Assembly: GCF_025263685.1 (NCBI RefSeq)
Contig: NZ_CP092109.1
Span: 1,551,001 to 1,615,000 of the forward strand
DNA from: Geoalkalibacter halelectricus
Lineage (GTDB): Bacteria; Desulfobacterota; Desulfuromonadia; Desulfuromonadales; Geoalkalibacteraceae
Length of the DNA stretch: 64,000 bases
Direction of reading: 5' to 3'
Shown here piece by piece: positions 45,616 through 51,764 of the stretch; positions within the stretch are counted from its first letter, which is position 1, and the number at the start of each line of letters is the position of its first letter. Both the position numbers and the translations under genes were made by a program. The notes beneath the pieces are model-generated. The model searched no databases, was not told the DNA's origin, and was given only the letters and a program-made list of their open reading frames with translations.

Positions 45616-46455
45616 CTAACAAAGGCGATCATAGGCTTCGAGGAGCCGCTTAAGGTGCCGACGTTCATCGCCCGCCAGTATTTCCACGATGCGCCTTTGG
45701 TCTTCATCAGCGAGTTTACGCTGGAGGGACAAATAGCGATCATAGGCATTGGTCTCAAGAGCGACAGCCAGATCGATCACTTCCAGGGAACTCCGGCCTT
45801 GCGCCCACCGCCAAACGCTATCCAAAGCCACCCCCCCCTCGACAAAGATCTCGCCACCGAGACTGGCGCTCACACCTTCAGCGGTAGCCTCAATGCCTCC
45901 AGGAGCCGACGAGAACAGCGCATAGAGTTCGGCAAGGGTTTTTTTGTGTTGCTCTTCAGCCTGCGCCAGCTGCCCGAACAGATAAACCACTTTCACGTCC
46001 TCGCAAAGAGCGGCGAATCGGGCATAAAATTTCCGGGTTCCCTCTTCCAAGAGCCAAGCCGCGGCAATGAAATTTTCAATCGAGGAGGTATCAAGTACTG
46101 CGAAGGCCTGACGATCGAGCCCTTTGGCAACAGAGCCCTTCCAGGCGGCGTATCCGCCCTCGAGAATCGCCACATGCTTGAAACCGGCGCCGTGCAGCAA
46201 GGCCGCCGCAGCACGGCTACGCAATCCAAACCGGCAATAGACGATGGTCGGCAGGCCGGGGTTGAGTTGGCGCAGGTGCGCACCCAAATCCCACAATGGA
46301 GTGGATATGGCCCCGGGAAGGTGCCCCTGGACATATTCCGTTTCCTGCCGAACGTCGAGCAGTTGGAAATCCTCGGGATGTCTTTCCAACAGCCATTCCT
46401 GAACTTTGGTTGGCGCCCAATATGTGAGGGCCTGAAATAATCCAAACGCGCTCAT
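45616..46455 (-). CDS. Rhodanese domain fused to a ferritin-like domain
   Basis: A 279-aa fusion. Residues 15-110 form a rhodanese domain with the active-site cysteine in YCRFGLRS. Residues 125-275 are a four-helix rubrerythrin/ferritin-like domain with di-iron-style ligands EEGTRKFY, EEQH, ETNAYDRY and DERRH. Such a fusion could couple sulphur transfer to iron or peroxide chemistry; the real reaction is unknown. It is soluble, with no signal peptide. The ribosome site GTGGGA before ATG 46455 is weak. Confidence 0.8.
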   Translation of the reverse strand: MSAFGLFQALTYWAPTKVQEWLLERHPEDFQLLDVRQETEYVQGHLPGAISTPLWDLGAHLRQLNPGLPTIVYCRFGLRSRAAAALLHGAGFKHVAILEGGYAAWKGSVAKGLDRQAFAVLDTSSIENFIAAAWLLEEGTRKFYARFAALCEDVKVVYLFGQLAQAEEQHKKTLAELYALFSSAPGGIEATAEGVSASLGGEIFVEGGVALDSVWRWAQGRSSLEVIDLAVALETNAYDRYLSLQRKLADEDQRRIVEILAGDERRHLKRLLEAYDRLC

Positions 46456-46602
46456 AAATTTTTCCCACTTGGAAAAAACTATCCGCTGTATTTGCAGAGT
46501 TTACCTTATTTTTAACCAACCAGGCGTAAAGAAAGGTCGCTAACTTAGCCAAATATTCAGTTCTTATTTGTTGAACTTCTTGTTTCTTTGAACAAAGCAC
46601 AT

Positions 46603-46642
46603 AAAAAAACCGCCCAGCGGTAGGGCAGAGACCGCCGGACGG
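46603..46642 (-). terminator. Intrinsic terminator of the candidate small RNA
   Basis: Twelve-pair stem (46631-46642 with 46610-46621), 9-nt loop, then seven T's on the minus strand. Two pairs are G-U on the minus strand but A-C mismatches on the plus strand, so selection has kept the structure for a minus-strand RNA. Confidence 0.85.
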
Positions 46643-46726
46643 AAATGCAACTGGTTTATTTTTTCTCTGAGGAAAGCTCAGGTTGTTTTCGGTTAGGTCA
46701 ACCTTTTTGGGATCTCGTCCTTTACT
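46603..46726 (-). ncRNA. Candidate sigma-54-dependent small RNA downstream of glrR
   Basis: The minus-strand stretch between a sigma-54 promoter and a strong terminator. The start is set about 12 nt after the -12 GC and is approximate. It has no ATG or GTG and the few TTG frames are a handful of codons long, so it is unlikely to code. Predicted elements are a GGTTG/CAACC stem, a CTGAG-ctttc-CTCAG hairpin, an A-rich single-stranded part (AGAAAAAATAAACC) and the terminator. By context it would be controlled by the GlrK-QseG-GlrR system encoded just upstream. Being a GlmY counterpart is inference; no sequence match to GlmY is claimed. Confidence 0.6.
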
Positions 46727-46735
46727 CACCTAGTT

Positions 46736-46753
46736 TTGCAATCCAGATGCCAA
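46736..46753 (-). promoter_or_regulatory. Sigma-54 promoter (-24/-12)
   Basis: Minus-strand TTGGCATCTGGATTGCAA. The invariant GG and GC are exactly 10 nt apart and both flanks (TGGCA, TTGCA) match the consensus TGGCAC-N5-TTGCA. An A/T-rich tract at 46757-46775 just upstream could bind IHF. Confidence 0.75.
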
Positions 46754-46837
46754 CCCTTATTTTTTCAATTGTTTCATGGACTTAAAGCAGACAAAAGCAA
46801 ACAGGTCGAGTCAGAAAGCCCTCCAAGCCCAACTCGC

Positions 46838-46855
46838 TGTCTCCATTAAGCTACA
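46838..46855. promoter_or_regulatory. Putative GlrR-type site 1
   Basis: TGTC-N10-TACA, one change from TGTC-N10-GACA, with perfect outer arms GCTGT (46836-46840) and ACAGC (46853-46857). Its centre lies about 120 bp upstream of the predicted start, a typical enhancer distance. Confidence 0.55.
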
Positions 46856-46898
46856 GCCCGCCCCACCTAAAGGCTCCCTGCCGCGCTGCCCCTGGCTC

Positions 46899-46915
46899 AG
46901 GCTTTAATAAAGCCT
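46899..46915. other. AGGCTTT/AAAGCCT hairpin
   Basis: Perfect 7-bp inverted repeat with a 3-nt loop, between GlrR-like sites 1 and 2. Its role is unknown; it could be a DNA-binding site or a minor transcript structure. Confidence 0.4.
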
Positions 46916-46956
46916 CTTCGCCTAAACGCCAAGAATCCATGAGTTATAATGCCATA

Positions 46957-46974
46957 GGTCTTTTCACATGAACA
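46957..46974. promoter_or_regulatory. Putative GlrR-type site 2
   Basis: GGTC-N10-AACA, two changes from TGTC-N10-GACA, retaining the core GTC/ACA. It counts mainly because two better copies flank it. Confidence 0.35.
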
Positions 46975-47014
46975 AAAACCACGCTTTCATCCCCAGAAAA
47001 CCCCTTAAAAACCC

Positions 47015-47032
47015 CGTCTCCGAAAGACGACA
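47015..47032. promoter_or_regulatory. Putative GlrR-type site 3, or terminator of glrR
   Basis: CGTC-N10-GACA, one change from TGTC-N10-GACA. The same bases form a minus-strand CGTCT-ttcgg-AGACG hairpin before five T's, so this may equally be the end of the glrR transcript. Both readings could hold. Confidence 0.4.
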
Positions 47033-47041
47033 GACCCCAGC

Positions 47042-48400
47042 CTATTTAAACAAAGTCGGCACGATATGGTGACGGTTGAGCAATTTGTAGAACTCGGTAC
47101 GGTTGCGCTTGGCAAGCCGCGCGGCCTGGCTGACGTTTCCGTTGGTGATCTTAAGCAACTGCACCAGATACTCCTGTTCGAACTGACGCCGGGCATCGGC
47201 AAAGGAGGGAATGTCCTCGGGCGTTTCGCGAATAGCATTATGGATCAGATCCGCGGAGATCAGGTGGCTTGTGGACAGGGCCACGGCCTGCTCAACGACA
47301 TTGCCGAGTTGGCGGATGTTTCCTGGCCAACTGGCACTGATGAGCACCTCCATGGCCTCGGGTGAAATCCCCCCGACTTTTTTGCCGGTCTCGCTGGTTA
47401 CCTTGTGCAGGAAATGATTGGCCAGCAGGGGAATGTCCTCGCGCCGCTCGGCCAGGGTGGGCAATTCCAGAGAAACCACATTGAGGCGGTAATAAAGATC
47501 TTCGCGGAAATTGCCTTCCTTGATCTCATCCTCGAGCACCCGATGCGTCGCCGAGATAATCCGCACATTGATGCTGGTGGCGAGGGCCGAACCTATGGCC
47601 CGCACCTGCTTTTCCTGCAACACGCGTAGCAATTTGACCTGCAGAGCCAGCGGCATGTCGCCGATCTCGTCAAGAAACAGGGTGCCGCCATCGGCCGAGC
47701 GAAACAGCCCGGCATGGTTGCGATCAGCCCCGGTAAAGGCACCCTTGACATGCCCGAAAAGCTCTGACTCAAGAAGACTATCGGGAATTGCGCCGCAGTT
47801 CACCGCGACAAAAGGCTGGGCGGCACGTGCGCTGGCGCGATGAATCGCCCTTGCCAGCAGTTCCTTGCCGGTGCCGCTTTCTCCGCGGATCAGGACGCTC
47901 GAGTTGCTGGCGGCGGCCAAAAGCGCCTTTCTCAGCAAATCTTCCACCAAGGGACTCTGGGTGATGATTTCCCGGCGCCACTCCTGACCGGGCAGGTCGC
48001 CCCCTCCGCCGGGGGAAAGACTCAGGGCCTTTTCCACCTCGCGCAGCAGTTCGCGGCTGTTGATGGGCTTGGTGAGAAAAGTGAAAACCCCGCGCTTGGT
48101 GGCGTCAACAGCATCAGGAATCGACCCGTGAGCGGTCAGAATGATCACCGGCAACGACGTGTTGCTTTTGCGAATGGCATCAAAGAGCGCCAGCCCGTTC
48201 ATACCTTCCATACGCAGATCGGTAATCACCAGTTGAGGACGGATGACCGGCAGCAAGGCCAGGGCTTCCTCGCCGCTTTGCGCGAGGCTGACGTCGTAGC
48301 CGTTGCCGGTGAGCCGCATGGCCAGCAGCTTGAGCAGATCCTCGTCGTCGTCAACCAAAAGAATGCGTTTTTTGTCCAAAATCATGAAAACTCTTTTCAC
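47042..48400 (-). CDS. glrR: NtrC-family response regulator, GlrR/QseF type
   Basis: A 452-aa sigma-54 activator. Receiver: RILLVDDDED with phosphoacceptor Asp in LVITDLRM. AAA+ domain: Walker A GESGTGKE, sigma-54 contact loop GAFTGA, Walker B LFLDEIGD. C-terminal Fis-type helix-turn-helix: NVSQAARLAKRNRTEFYKLL, which resembles the E. coli GlrR tail. GTG 48400 overlaps the QseG stop (GTGA), with ATG 48385 as an alternative. It should be phosphorylated by GlrK. In enterobacteria GlrR activates glmY from a sigma-54 promoter; a sigma-54 promoter lies about 300 bp downstream of this gene. Confidence 0.88.
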   Translation of the reverse strand: MKRVFMILDKKRILLVDDDEDLLKLLAMRLTGNGYDVSLAQSGEEALALLPVIRPQLVITDLRMEGMNGLALFDAIRKSNTSLPVIILTAHGSIPDAVDATKRGVFTFLTKPINSRELLREVEKALSLSPGGGGDLPGQEWRREIITQSPLVEDLLRKALLAAASNSSVLIRGESGTGKELLARAIHRASARAAQPFVAVNCGAIPDSLLESELFGHVKGAFTGADRNHAGLFRSADGGTLFLDEIGDMPLALQVKLLRVLQEKQVRAIGSALATSINVRIISATHRVLEDEIKEGNFREDLYYRLNVVSLELPTLAERREDIPLLANHFLHKVTSETGKKVGGISPEAMEVLISASWPGNIRQLGNVVEQAVALSTSHLISADLIHNAIRETPEDIPSFADARRQFEQEYLVQLLKITNGNVSQAARLAKRNRTEFYKLLNRHHIVPTLFK

Positions 48401-48981
48401 AAACCGGGTCGGCCGTTGACCTCCCGTTGTCGCATGATGGTTTCGATGTTGCGCAGTTCATTCAACTGACGTGCCAAGGTCTCCGAGTTTTGCCTCTCGC
48501 GCGCCAGGAGCGTTTCGACTTTCTCGCGCTCGGCGACCAATCCGATCAGAAGCCGCGCCAAAGCGTCAAGGTCTTCGGAGCCGGGGGAATTTTTCAGATG
48601 CTCCTGAAGCAACTCACGTCCCCGGTGGGCATTGCTGAAGCCGCGCCCGGGAATCAGCATCACCGCAGCCAGTTGCAAGCGCTCCTTATCCTCGGGATTG
48701 GTCTCATAGCGTCGGGCGAGACGCAGGTATTCCTCGGCCTGCAAATCGGCATCCATGTCCTGAAAAGCAGCAAGAAAATCGAGCACATCCCTCGCTTCAA
48801 GCCGTCGCGGCGGGAGCGGTTCGCTGATCTCCGCGAAAGGCTCTTCAGCGATCTCCGCAACAGGTTCCGCTTCCGCCTCGGTCTCGGCCATCCATCCCGA
48901 GAGATGTTCATGTATGGCGACACAGCCGCCGAGACCCGTCGCCAAAACCAAACAGAGCAACAATACGCTGACCCATTTCAT
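48397..48981 (-). CDS. qseG: QseG-like outer-membrane lipoprotein
   Basis: A 194-aa lipoprotein: signal peptide to lipobox LGGC (Cys 20), an acidic stretch (ETEAEAEPVAEIAEE), a helical TPR-like region (DADLQAEEYLRLARRYETNP) and a C-terminal coiled coil (LARERQNSETLARQLNELR). In E. coli, QseG lies between the kinase and regulator genes and interacts with the kinase QseE. The position here is identical, with 4-bp overlaps on both sides (ATGA with glrK, GTGA with glrR). The homology is by layout and lipoprotein/coiled-coil features; the sequence itself is weakly conserved. Confidence 0.75.
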   Translation of the reverse strand: MKWVSVLLLCLVLATGLGGCVAIHEHLSGWMAETEAEAEPVAEIAEEPFAEISEPLPPRRLEARDVLDFLAAFQDMDADLQAEEYLRLARRYETNPEDKERLQLAAVMLIPGRGFSNAHRGRELLQEHLKNSPGSEDLDALARLLIGLVAEREKVETLLARERQNSETLARQLNELRNIETIMRQREVNGRPGL

Positions 48982-50399
48982 GCAAGATCCTCCGCGGCAA
49001 GAGGCAACCAAACGCGAAACAAGGCGCCACCGGCAGGGCTTTGCCCAACATCGACTCTTCCGCTCAGGGAGTCGACATATTCCCTGACAATGGACAATCC
49101 CAGGCCGGTTCCCTGGACATGGCTCAAACAAGGCGCACTGCCCTGATAAAAAGGCTGAAAGATTTTTTCTGATTCCTCAACTTGGATGCCGGGACCCGAA
49201 TCACCCACTTCGATCAGAGCCATATCACCATCGCGGCCCACGCTCAATTCAACAACACCACCAACGGGGGTGAACTTGACCGCGTTGGACAAGAGGTTGT
49301 CCATCAGAATCCGCAGTCGATCACGATCGCCCTGAAGTTGCAGGGGAGAGAGGCTGGTGCGCATCTTCAACTCTTTCTTCAGCACCGCGGCGCGCTGATC
49401 CTCCATAATATCCTCCACGAGGGCCAGCACGTCGACTGCCGTCTCAGCCTCGCCCAGCGCCTGCCCGCGGCTGAATCCCAGCAGGTTTTCGATGAGTTTC
49501 TGCAATTGCAGGCTGTTTTTCTGCAGGATGTGGACGATCTCGCGCTGCTGGGAATTCAAGGGCCCGGCCATCTCCTCCATCATCAGCTCAGAGCCCTCCC
49601 GGATGGATGCCAGGGGGGTTTTGAGCTCATGGCTGACATGGGCGAGGAATTTGGTTTTTTCCCGCTCGACCTCGCCCAGACGCCGACGCAACCAGTTCAG
49701 GCGTTCACCGAGGAATTGTAGATCCTGCGGCCCTCCGACCCTAATGGGCTGATCGTAGTCACCAGCGCCCATGCGGCTGATCCCGCGATTGATCTGCTTG
49801 ACGGGACGCGCCAGCAACCGGGTGAAAAGACCCACCAGCGCCAGGGTCAGCAGCACCAGGGCCAGGGACGTCCACAGCAGCACCATCTGGGTGCGGTCGG
49901 CATGGGACTGCATGGCCCCGACTTCCTGCTTGATCAGCTCATAGCTGTTGAAATATACCGCCTTGGCCAGTTCGTTGAGCGCGGCGAAAGTATCGAGATC
50001 AGGCGCGGGCCCGCCGCTGCGCTGCAACGCCGTGACCAGAATACCCACTTCGAGCAGCAGCTGATCGAGAACCTGCTGTGCGTCGGGCGGCGAGAGACTG
50101 CGCAGGTGATGGAGGGAATCAAAAAATTCATGATATTTCTCGGCGACCTCCTCAAGGAGCTGGGGATCCTTGAGTACCCTGTATTGGCGGGATTTTCGTT
50201 CCAGGTCGACCAGGTGTTCAAGCATGATGCGGCCGCCGTCGGTCGCCGCCACGGAGCGATAGACCGCCTCGGTGCCCTTATCCACCAGACGGCTCACGGA
50301 AACTTCCGCCGCGATCAGGGTGATCAGCAGGGGCATCAGCACCGCGCCGAAGCCGATCACGATGAACACCTGAAAAGATTTGGGCCGGAGCAAACTCAT
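48978..50399 (-). CDS. glrK: Sensor histidine kinase, GlrK/QseE type
   Basis: A 473-aa membrane kinase. Two membrane segments (about 10-33 and 170-192) enclose a helical periplasmic domain (ARKSRQYRVLKDP-like). HAMP region LARPVKQINRGISRMG leads to GERLNWLRRRLGEVEREKTKFLAH and the H-box HVSHELKTPLASIREG, which matches GlrK closely. N-box DNLLSNAVKFT and G-boxes DSGPGI and GTGLGLSI are complete. ATG 50399 has a GGAAGAG site about 6 nt upstream. The signal is unknown; in E. coli the system reports envelope conditions and controls glmY. Confidence 0.88.
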   Translation of the reverse strand: MSLLRPKSFQVFIVIGFGAVLMPLLITLIAAEVSVSRLVDKGTEAVYRSVAATDGGRIMLEHLVDLERKSRQYRVLKDPQLLEEVAEKYHEFFDSLHHLRSLSPPDAQQVLDQLLLEVGILVTALQRSGGPAPDLDTFAALNELAKAVYFNSYELIKQEVGAMQSHADRTQMVLLWTSLALVLLTLALVGLFTRLLARPVKQINRGISRMGAGDYDQPIRVGGPQDLQFLGERLNWLRRRLGEVEREKTKFLAHVSHELKTPLASIREGSELMMEEMAGPLNSQQREIVHILQKNSLQLQKLIENLLGFSRGQALGEAETAVDVLALVEDIMEDQRAAVLKKELKMRTSLSPLQLQGDRDRLRILMDNLLSNAVKFTPVGGVVELSVGRDGDMALIEVGDSGPGIQVEESEKIFQPFYQGSAPCLSHVQGTGLGLSIVREYVDSLSGRVDVGQSPAGGALFRVWLPLAAEDLA

Positions 50400-50429
50400 G
50401 AAACTCTTCCCGCCGACTGGTCCCACCCC

Positions 50430-51764
50430 TCAGGCGGACAGGGGCCAGTCGGTTTCAAAACCCGGCGGAAAAAAATTCTCCCGCGTCCGGTTGAAATAGC
50501 CGTATTGCAAGCGCGGCACACGTTGCTTGACCAGATCCATCATGGCTTTCATGCCCATGCCGGGATTCGTCTCGCCCATGGCCTGCCAATAAATCTGAGG
50601 GTCGATACTGAGATTGCGCAACTGTATCAGATCGACGCCGGTTTCTTCGAGCAAGGCCAACAGGGCCTCAACCTCCGCGGGCTGATCGCTCACCCCGGGA
50701 AACACCAGGTAGTTGAGCATGGTGAAAAGTCCCCGGCGCTTGGCACGCCGCAGGGATTCGACCACATCCTCGAACCGGTAGCCGCGGGGACGGTGATAGG
50801 CCTCGTAGAGGCCGGGGCGAACCGAGTTGAGAGAAACGCGAATGGAATCGAGTCCCGCTTCGGCCAGCCCCTCGACGGCATCGGGCAGCGAGGCGTTGGT
50901 ATTGAGGTGGATGGTCCCGCGCGCTGTGTGGCGCCGCATGCGGCGCACGGCCGCGACCAGCAGATCGGCCTGCAGAATCGGATCACCCTCGCAACCCTGA
51001 CCGAAGGAGACGATGGCATTTTGCGCCTGCTCGAGGTGGGGCACGGCCACCTCGCAAATTTCATCAACCGTGGGCACGAAGGCGATGCGCTCCTGGCTGG
51101 AGGGGCAACACTCGCTGGCCTCGGGTTGCAGGGAAAGACACCCCAGGCACGCTGAATTGCACGCCGGTGAGGTCGGCAGGGGGGCCTCCCAACGGCCGAA
51201 GAAGAGATTTTTCGCCGCGAAGCAATGATAATCCAGGGCACAGCGCGCCAACTGTTCCAGCAAGCGATTGCGCGGCTGCGCGGCAAGGCGCTTGCGCACC
51301 AGGGGGTCGAGCCTGCGGTCGTCAAAATGCCTGGGCTGCCACTGGTTGTTACGGTCCACCCGCGCGGCCGCCACATAAAAACGCTCTTCCTCGACGCACC
51401 ACCCCACCGCCGTGTACGCCCAGAGCGGCAGCACCAGCTGCTTGTCCGCGTAATCGGCCGCGGGCAACAGCGTTCGCGTATAGGCCGGCGCCATGAAGGC
51501 GCACACAGCCTGAATCGCGCCGCCCCCCCAGCGGCGGGGCAGACGGCCGGCCTTGACGAAGGCCTGTTTGGCCGGGTCGAAGCCCAGCGGTGCCATGCCC
51601 GGCAGGGTGAACAAACGGCTGCCCTCGGGCAAGGGAATCAGCTCCTCGGCGCGGGGCACACAGGGGGTCATGCCGTTCATTCCCGCCATGCGCAAATGTG
51701 GGTGTTCGAAGACCTCGCCCTGCTCGTCCGCCACAACGGCGAGAAATGTTTTTGTCTTTTTCAT
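50430..51764 (-). CDS. Radical SAM protein, first gene of the glrKR operon
   Basis: A 444-aa radical-SAM enzyme. The cluster motif is CNSACLGC near residue 205, preceded by a 200-residue N-terminal extension with no recognised domain. The barrel continues with FGQGCEGDP, GTIHLNTNAS and SIRVSLNSV, all typical. An extra CC lies soon after the cluster (ASECC). The product is unknown. It ends 30 bp before glrK, so it is probably transcribed with glrK-qseG-glrR. AAGGAAA lies about 7 nt before ATG 51764. Confidence 0.8.
   Translation of the reverse strand: MKKTKTFLAVVADEQGEVFEHPHLRMAGMNGMTPCVPRAEELIPLPEGSRLFTLPGMAPLGFDPAKQAFVKAGRLPRRWGGGAIQAVCAFMAPAYTRTLLPAADYADKQLVLPLWAYTAVGWCVEEERFYVAAARVDRNNQWQPRHFDDRRLDPLVRKRLAAQPRNRLLEQLARCALDYHCFAAKNLFFGRWEAPLPTSPACNSACLGCLSLQPEASECCPSSQERIAFVPTVDEICEVAVPHLEQAQNAIVSFGQGCEGDPILQADLLVAAVRRMRRHTARGTIHLNTNASLPDAVEGLAEAGLDSIRVSLNSVRPGLYEAYHRPRGYRFEDVVESLRRAKRRGLFTMLNYLVFPGVSDQPAEVEALLALLEETGVDLIQLRNLSIDPQIYWQAMGETNPGMGMKAMMDLVKQRVPRLQYGYFNRTRENFFPPGFETDWPLSA

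Follow-up and report, generated by a model that had tools for sequence, protein, structure and literature searches.

A candidate sigma-54-dependent small RNA gene with GlrR-type sites downstream of glrR in Geoalkalibacter halelectricus

In Escherichia coli, QseF (GlrR) activates glmY and rpoE from sigma-54 promoters (PMC6075780), and the QseF sites are given as TGTN12ACA or TGTCN10GACA (PMC6075780 and PMC8745638). The locus reported here resembles the enterobacterial arrangement (glmY-qseE-qseG-qseF) in having a predicted small RNA beside a GlrK/QseG/GlrR-type operon, a sigma-54 promoter and sites of the same type. It differs in that the candidate RNA follows glrR instead of preceding glrK, is unrelated in sequence, has one strong hairpin, is predicted to be 69-129 nt long and would originate in a lost protein operon. 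In Pseudomonas, the gene of CrcZ (CbrB/sigma-54) lies directly after cbrB, its own NtrC-family activator gene; this position of a small RNA gene right after the activator gene is the nearest layout known to us. CrcZ is longer than the candidate RNA and sequesters Hfq/Crc through CA motifs. The Qrr RNAs of Vibrio differ from the candidate in activator family, sequence and target logic. They resemble it in combining an EBP (LuxO) with a sigma-54-driven small RNA (PMC10162802). The DNA features of this sigma-54/EBP-driven class (promoter, EBP sites, and terminator) are present at the predicted RNA locus. The class of 3′UTR-derived small RNAs is similar in that the functional part corresponds to the terminator hairpin of an mRNA 3′UTR in sister genera; it is dissimilar in that the locus reported here has lost the coding sequence, and the RNA would be transcribed directly from the promoter of the former mRNA.

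The window, which is the whole stretch of 64,000 nt that was analysed, covers positions 1551001-1615000 of the 4.13-Mb single-contig genome of G. halelectricus (G000). It was compared with three other Geoalkalibacter genomes (G001, G002, and G003), giving a genus set of four, and with one genome from each of the sister genera (G004 and G005); "family" refers to these six. The features of the locus, in window positions, were as follows.

45616-46455, minus strand: gene of a rhodanese plus rubrerythrin/ferritin-like protein (Pfam), next downstream; far edge of the proposed deletion; in G004 it comes after AGQ-SH3
46603-46726, minus strand: putative small RNA of 124 nt; predicted start placed by the -12 element, end set at the terminator
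46610-46642, minus strand: covarying terminator hairpin, then U7; loop core CUGCCCUA at 46628-46621
46643-46653, minus strand: CAGTTGCATTT, a conserved stretch preceding the hairpin; the genus consensus, GTTGCAYTTCC in all four genomes, takes in the first two bases of the stem
46737-46752, minus strand: predicted sigma-54 promoter TGGCATCTGGATTGCA, GG-N10-GC, found by pattern; counterparts in G001, G002, and G003
46838-46855, minus strand: proximal GlrR-type site TGTAGCTTAATGGAGACA, one mismatch to TGTC-N10-GACA, starting 103 nt before the promoter
47015-47032, minus strand: distal GlrR-type site TGTCGTCTTTCGGAGACG, one mismatch to TGTC-N10-GACA, found by pattern
47042-48400, minus strand: glrR-like sigma-54 response regulator gene; best family NCBIfam NF011695 (GlrR), with Pfam receiver, Sigma54_activat, and HTH_8
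48397-49131, minus strand: lipoprotein-like gene at the qseG position; lipobox identified by eye, true start probably internal, before MKWVSVLLLCLVLATGLGGC
48978-50426, minus strand: glrK-like sensor histidine kinase gene (HAMP, HisKA, and HATPase_c); GlrK name taken from its position

NF011695 was the clear best family of the glrR product at 611 bits, under the curated cut-off of 763 bits. The middle gene (48397-49131) had no Pfam or NCBIfam match and is called putatively QseG-like by its place and lipobox alone. A radical SAM protein gene (50430-51764) lies on the same minus strand directly upstream of glrK. Between the end of glrR (47042) and the rhodanese/ferritin-like gene is a gap of 586 nt, which on the minus strand contains the two GlrR-type sites, the sigma-54 promoter, the predicted 124-nt RNA and the terminator.

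The original prediction had placed on this strand, just after glrR, a GG-N10-GC sigma-54 promoter, 124 nt without an ATG and a terminator of 12 pairs, two of them G-U pairs that form only in the minus-strand RNA, preceded by three NGTC-N10-NACA sites. All were present: the promoter at 46752-46737; the ATG-free stretch at 46726-46603, from which GTG is also absent; the hairpin with both G-U pairs, followed by U7; and the sites, read on the plus strand, at 46838-46855, 46957-46974, and 47015-47032, two of which, on the minus strand, deviate from TGTC-N10-GACA at no more than one position. The case for a candidate small RNA beside glrK-lipoprotein-glrR, under putative sigma-54 and GlrR control, was strengthened by conservation in all four genus genomes and by GlrR-type sites at the homologous place in 20 of 20 glrR-bearing genomes, as described below.

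When the 450 nt after glrR were dinucleotide-shuffled 200 times, no shuffle equalled the score of TGGCATCTGGATTGCA. No sigma-70-type promoter was found in 46400-47060. A GG-N10-GC promoter was present in each of the four genus genomes (TGGCATCTGGATTGCA in G000, TGGCATTTAGATTGCA in G003, TGGCATGAAGCATGCT in G001, and TGGCACAAGATGTGCT in G002; equalled by 0, 0, 3, and 3 of 200 shuffles, respectively). These promoters were located by pattern; MAFFT alignment placed them wrongly. The proximal GlrR-type site starts 103, 101, 105, and 103 nt before the promoter in the same order of genomes, and the GlmY-type combination of a sigma-54 promoter with upstream GlrR/QseF sites is predicted in all four.

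A GlrR orthologue was identified (E <= 1e-130) in 20 of the 58 relatives. Within 450 nt after glrR, these 20 loci together had 41 sites with no more than one mismatch to TGTC-N10-GACA, versus 2.06 in shuffles, and every one of the 20 had at least one. Genome-wide, TGTC-N10-GACA and its reversed control occurred 30/33, 38/14, 28/22, 47/36, 9/20, and 36/41 times in G000 to G005, without consistent excess, so that such a site is meaningful only by its place. GlrR is named as the putative activator on the basis of site similarity and place.

The predicted RNAs are 124, 129, 69, and 71 nt long in G000, G003, G001, and G002. The 124-nt RNA has two TTG frames, one closing after 2 codons and one never closing, and its overall folding is no better than that of shuffles (z -0.74). 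A query of 181 bases had BLAST matches in five of the 58 related genomes: the own genome, the three genus members and G005. The promoter, the proximal site and the 3′ core were retained in 4/4 genus genomes, where conservation had been proposed as a check. When the gap was scanned in 18-nt windows, the filter was passed at the proximal site (46855) and in the 3′ core (46657 to 46598) alone, and not at the sigma-54 promoter. The best 3′ core windows exceeded all 60 shuffled windows in three of three comparisons, and the proximal-site window was above the shuffled maximum in one and equal to it in two. The predicted RNA is free to vary in its 5′ part and constrained in its 3′ part.

Among the genus hairpins the stem varies and the loop CUGCCCUA is constant in all four; the loop core CTGCCCT is invariant in six of six sequences from three genera. 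The covariation alignment was small, consisting of the four Geoalkalibacter cores, G005 and G004, the last found by eye. Across the six aligned cores, pair 29-51 reads CG, CG, UA, UA, CG, and GC, and pair 27-53 reads UG, UG, CG, CG, UA, and CG. Paired cells amounted to 93.1% (2/500 shuffles as high), versus at most 55.6% when slid, and covariation was 0.356 (2/500 shuffles as high), versus 0.033-0.139 when slid. Three pairs were changed on both sides, a number by itself not beyond shuffles (94/500). A covariance model, R1, gave one match in each of the six family genomes at 70.7-84.1 bits, these being the same six sequences from which it was built. Among the remaining 130 genomes of the 136 from the order, the best match reached 35.4 bits, and CTGCCCT was found in none of 13 weaker matches; with the stricter filters used and 40 candidates scored per genome, weak copies may be lost from this search.

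The homologous place in relatives is occupied by protein genes. In 13 of the 16 glrR-bearing genomes outside the genus, the GlrR-type sites after glrR are followed by a gene whose product carries, near its N-terminus, a motif of typically ALxAYAGQxGY (AGQ). The frames span 153-192 codons stop to stop in eight and 69-90 in five of the 13. An SH3 motif was found downstream of AGQ in 11 of the 13 loci, and a sigma-54 site equalled by no more than 10/200 shuffles in seven, those of the others being weaker or not evident; the sister-genus sites scored 0/200 (G004) and 3/200 (G005). AGQ was not seen by motif in the remaining three genomes: 1) G054, from which AGQ and a clear promoter are gone and in which two GlrR-type sites remain; 2) G014, where the stretch ends early on its contig; and 3) G010. 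AGQ proteins form an uncharacterised secreted or membrane protein family (e.g., G005 L027:380-856, G004 L028 on the minus strand, and G050 L032:354-866); the two that were scanned had no Pfam match over the cut-off and no NCBIfam match.

In G004 the gene order is glrR-AGQ-SH3-rhodanese/ferritin, and in Geoalkalibacter it is glrR-[RNA]-rhodanese/ferritin; in G002, which was read by eye, the contig ends within the latter gene. The G005 AGQ protein as query matched none of the four Geoalkalibacter genomes at E <= 0.1; the same query finds the 33%-identical G004 protein. A terminator between AGQ and SH3 was found in G005 by BLAST (E 2.5e-5), and reading of the G004 sequence revealed a hairpin between AGQ and SH3 with the same loop core. 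The RNA core is thereby homologous to the AGQ mRNA 3′UTR hairpin in G004 and G005, one genome each. Within the genus, SH3_and_anchor was over the cut-off only in G003, at another place (L048:1227-1379), where the gene sits behind a GlrR-type site, TGTCGCCAGGGAAAGACA, and a sigma-54-like CGGCACATGAATTGCT; possession of its own site and sigma-54-like promoter suggests SH3 as a GlrR target away from the glr locus and hence as a member of the regulon.

The most likely reading, which we consider probable, is that the gap contains a small regulatory RNA gene under GlrK/GlrR control through sigma-54. At the level of sequence it has behind it the predicted promoter and sites, the hairpin covariation, the loop conservation, the synteny and the lack of an AGQ match in the genus; we infer transcription of the candidate RNA, its GlrR dependence, the signal, action in trans and use of Hfq. 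Envelope-related signals to GlrK would yield GlrR-P, which would bind the sites starting about 100 and about 280 nt upstream of the promoter. Sigma-54 polymerase would then make the 124-nt RNA, terminating at the hairpin, and the RNA may act in trans via the C/U-rich terminator loop CUGCCCUA and the preceding GUUGCAUUU stretch, probably with Hfq. Pairing of terminator loops to G-rich leaders is known for other small RNAs. The hfq gene was found in five of the six family genomes, the one without a match being G004, a genome 81% complete.

As to origin, deletion of the AGQ and SH3 genes, present in most glrR-bearing relatives of the order, would have fused the promoter to the AGQ 3′UTR hairpin. 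We hold more tentatively, as a possibility just short of even, the fuller history in which the ancestral AGQ mRNA already had a trans-acting 3′UTR hairpin, the coding genes were deleted in Geoalkalibacter so that the GlrR/sigma-54 promoter makes the hairpin RNA alone, and the GlrR-small RNA coupling arose independently of enterobacterial GlmY. On our best reading, the RNA was born when the coding genes separating promoter and 3′UTR hairpin were lost, and this proposed origin is the most unusual aspect of the locus. If true, it would be a case of stepwise small RNA birth, sister genera keeping the protein operon with its 3′UTR hairpin and Geoalkalibacter the promoter and hairpin only. It would also suggest that a small RNA has come under GlrK/GlrR on two occasions, once in enterobacteria and once at this locus. 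A recognisable GlrR site and a likely regulon (AGQ, SH3_and_anchor, and the small RNA) would be extended to Desulfuromonadales, and the GlrK/GlrR signal and output would become testable outside enterobacteria.

The literature searched yielded nothing on small RNA in Geoalkalibacter, and among the papers found on GlrR and GlmY none concerned Desulfuromonadales by listed title or the start of the abstract. The available main text of the G. sulfurreducens RpoN regulon paper does not contain 'small RNA' or 'sRNA' (PMC2725144). The D. vulgaris sigma-54 regulome reports four non-coding RNAs, and its available part makes no mention of GlrR or QseF (PMC4641369). As far as these searches reach, the candidate RNA is found nowhere in print.

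A cis-acting attenuator would explain the hairpin differently: the sigma-54 transcript would read through, and a protein or RNA at the hairpin loop would control the next gene, SH3 in the sister genera and rhodanese/ferritin here. The hairpin does lie between AGQ and a same-strand SH3 gene in G004 and G005 and before the same-strand rhodanese gene in the genus, and the conserved loop could be a protein site. We nevertheless regard this explanation as unlikely, since the loop is constant whether SH3 or rhodanese follows it, the SH3 gene at its new place in G003 has a site and a promoter and no such hairpin (R1 without a match on L064), and the predicted fold has no long stem competing with the hairpin.

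For a trans-acting small RNA, targets were sought with complements of its conserved 3′ part. The complement TAGGGCAGA occurred at 74 places, 19, 18, 15, and 22 in G000, G001, G002, and G003, versus 10, 11, 5, and 19 for the reversed control, and the complement GGAARTGCAA at 37 places in the genus genomes. All 111 matches were placed and clustered by flank similarity, and the two- and three-genome clusters were viewed with their ORF context; neither complement marked an mRNA start common to all four genus genomes. The RNA itself and the strand antisense to 6S RNA made up the clusters with one match in each of the four genomes. The sense string UCUCUGCCCUAC of the G000 loop also occurs in 6S RNA (L142:1531-1712, plus strand), and apart from the candidate RNA this is the one homologous place where all four genomes have the loop 9-mer; the 3′ arm of 6S RNA, CGGUAGG, 7 nt, could pair with CCUACCG of the candidate RNA. 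Both the sharing and the pairing are probably due to chance. A three-genome cluster (L087, L073, and L151), presumably antisense of an anaerobic ribonucleotide reductase gene as judged by eye from a motif, is not at a gene start.

The pattern AGGGCAGRN{1,10}ATG was found at least 48, 51, 52, and 66 times in G000, G001, G002, and G003, versus 6, 8, 5, and 9 times for the reversed pattern, so that the loop complement before ATG was about 6 to 10 times commoner in all four genomes; the reversed pattern is an unfair control for a motif of SD plus start codon, and the excess is therefore left unexplained. In G000, the only genome in which these stretches were read, 47 of the 48 matches were scanned and 17 stretches open an ORF of at least 60 codons. 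A rhodanese paralogue (L199) carrying AGGGCAGG ahead of its ATG was set aside, since its counterparts in G001, G002, G003, and G004 lack the motif. The G003 RNA can form nine pairs with the start of the relocated SH3 gene (AUGCAACUG), but 31/500 shuffles pair as well, and SH3 was not over the cut-off in the other three genus genomes; this pairing was therefore rejected.

The absence of a conserved target from these searches and the lack of conservation in the 5′ part would suit a vestige, i.e., a leftover promoter and terminator giving a useless short transcript after protein gene loss, which would be the direct outcome of the deletion history. We judge this distinctly unlikely. The promoter, the site spacing and the loop have been kept in four species while the rest of the intergenic DNA has largely diverged, and nothing would make an idle terminator preserve its loop while the stem covaries. 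The one comparable neighbouring terminator did turn over: in G000, G003, and G001 the rhodanese gene is followed by terminators unlike one another in both stem and loop. This control is limited to one gene, because glmS, the rhodanese paralogue and hfq gave almost no terminators with the finder.

A GlmY-like arrangement, as originally proposed, holds for the regulatory logic and fails for position, sequence and structure. The suggested pairing with glmS was computed and received no support: for the loop, 38, 40, 58, and 100 of 200 shuffled glmS leaders gave energies as low in G000, G003, G001, and G002, and for the 5′ part 36, 158, 196, and 126 of 200. With duplexes no better than those with shuffled leaders in 4/4 genus genomes, glmS is not supported as a target. 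Just before glmS, a palindromic GTAGGGGCGCACCGATGTGCGCCC-like element was observed in the four genus genomes (L065-L068), with small variations. Rfam cmscan of 46300-47200 with E up to 10 gave three matches under gathering scores, none of them GlmY/GlmZ (RF00128). A genuine homologue of GlmY/GlmZ, with glmS as its target through RapZ, would share the activator family, the sigma-54 control and the neighbourhood, but is very improbable given the lack of an Rfam match, the wrong side of the operon, the one strong hairpin and the glmS pairing no better than with shuffled leaders. Equally improbable is a short peptide. All four genomes do have a frame opening with TTG that continues through the 3′ core, and in G003 two further TTG frames, 7 and 15 codons long, close. 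Against a peptide, the frame common to the four does not terminate within the RNA, the four predicted RNAs have no ATG or GTG start, and nothing AGQ-like was recognisable by eye.

The G000 genome has two rhodanese plus ferritin/rubrerythrin-like paralogues (window 45616-46455 and L266). One such paralogue adjoins the glr locus in G000, G001, G003, and G004, and not in G005.
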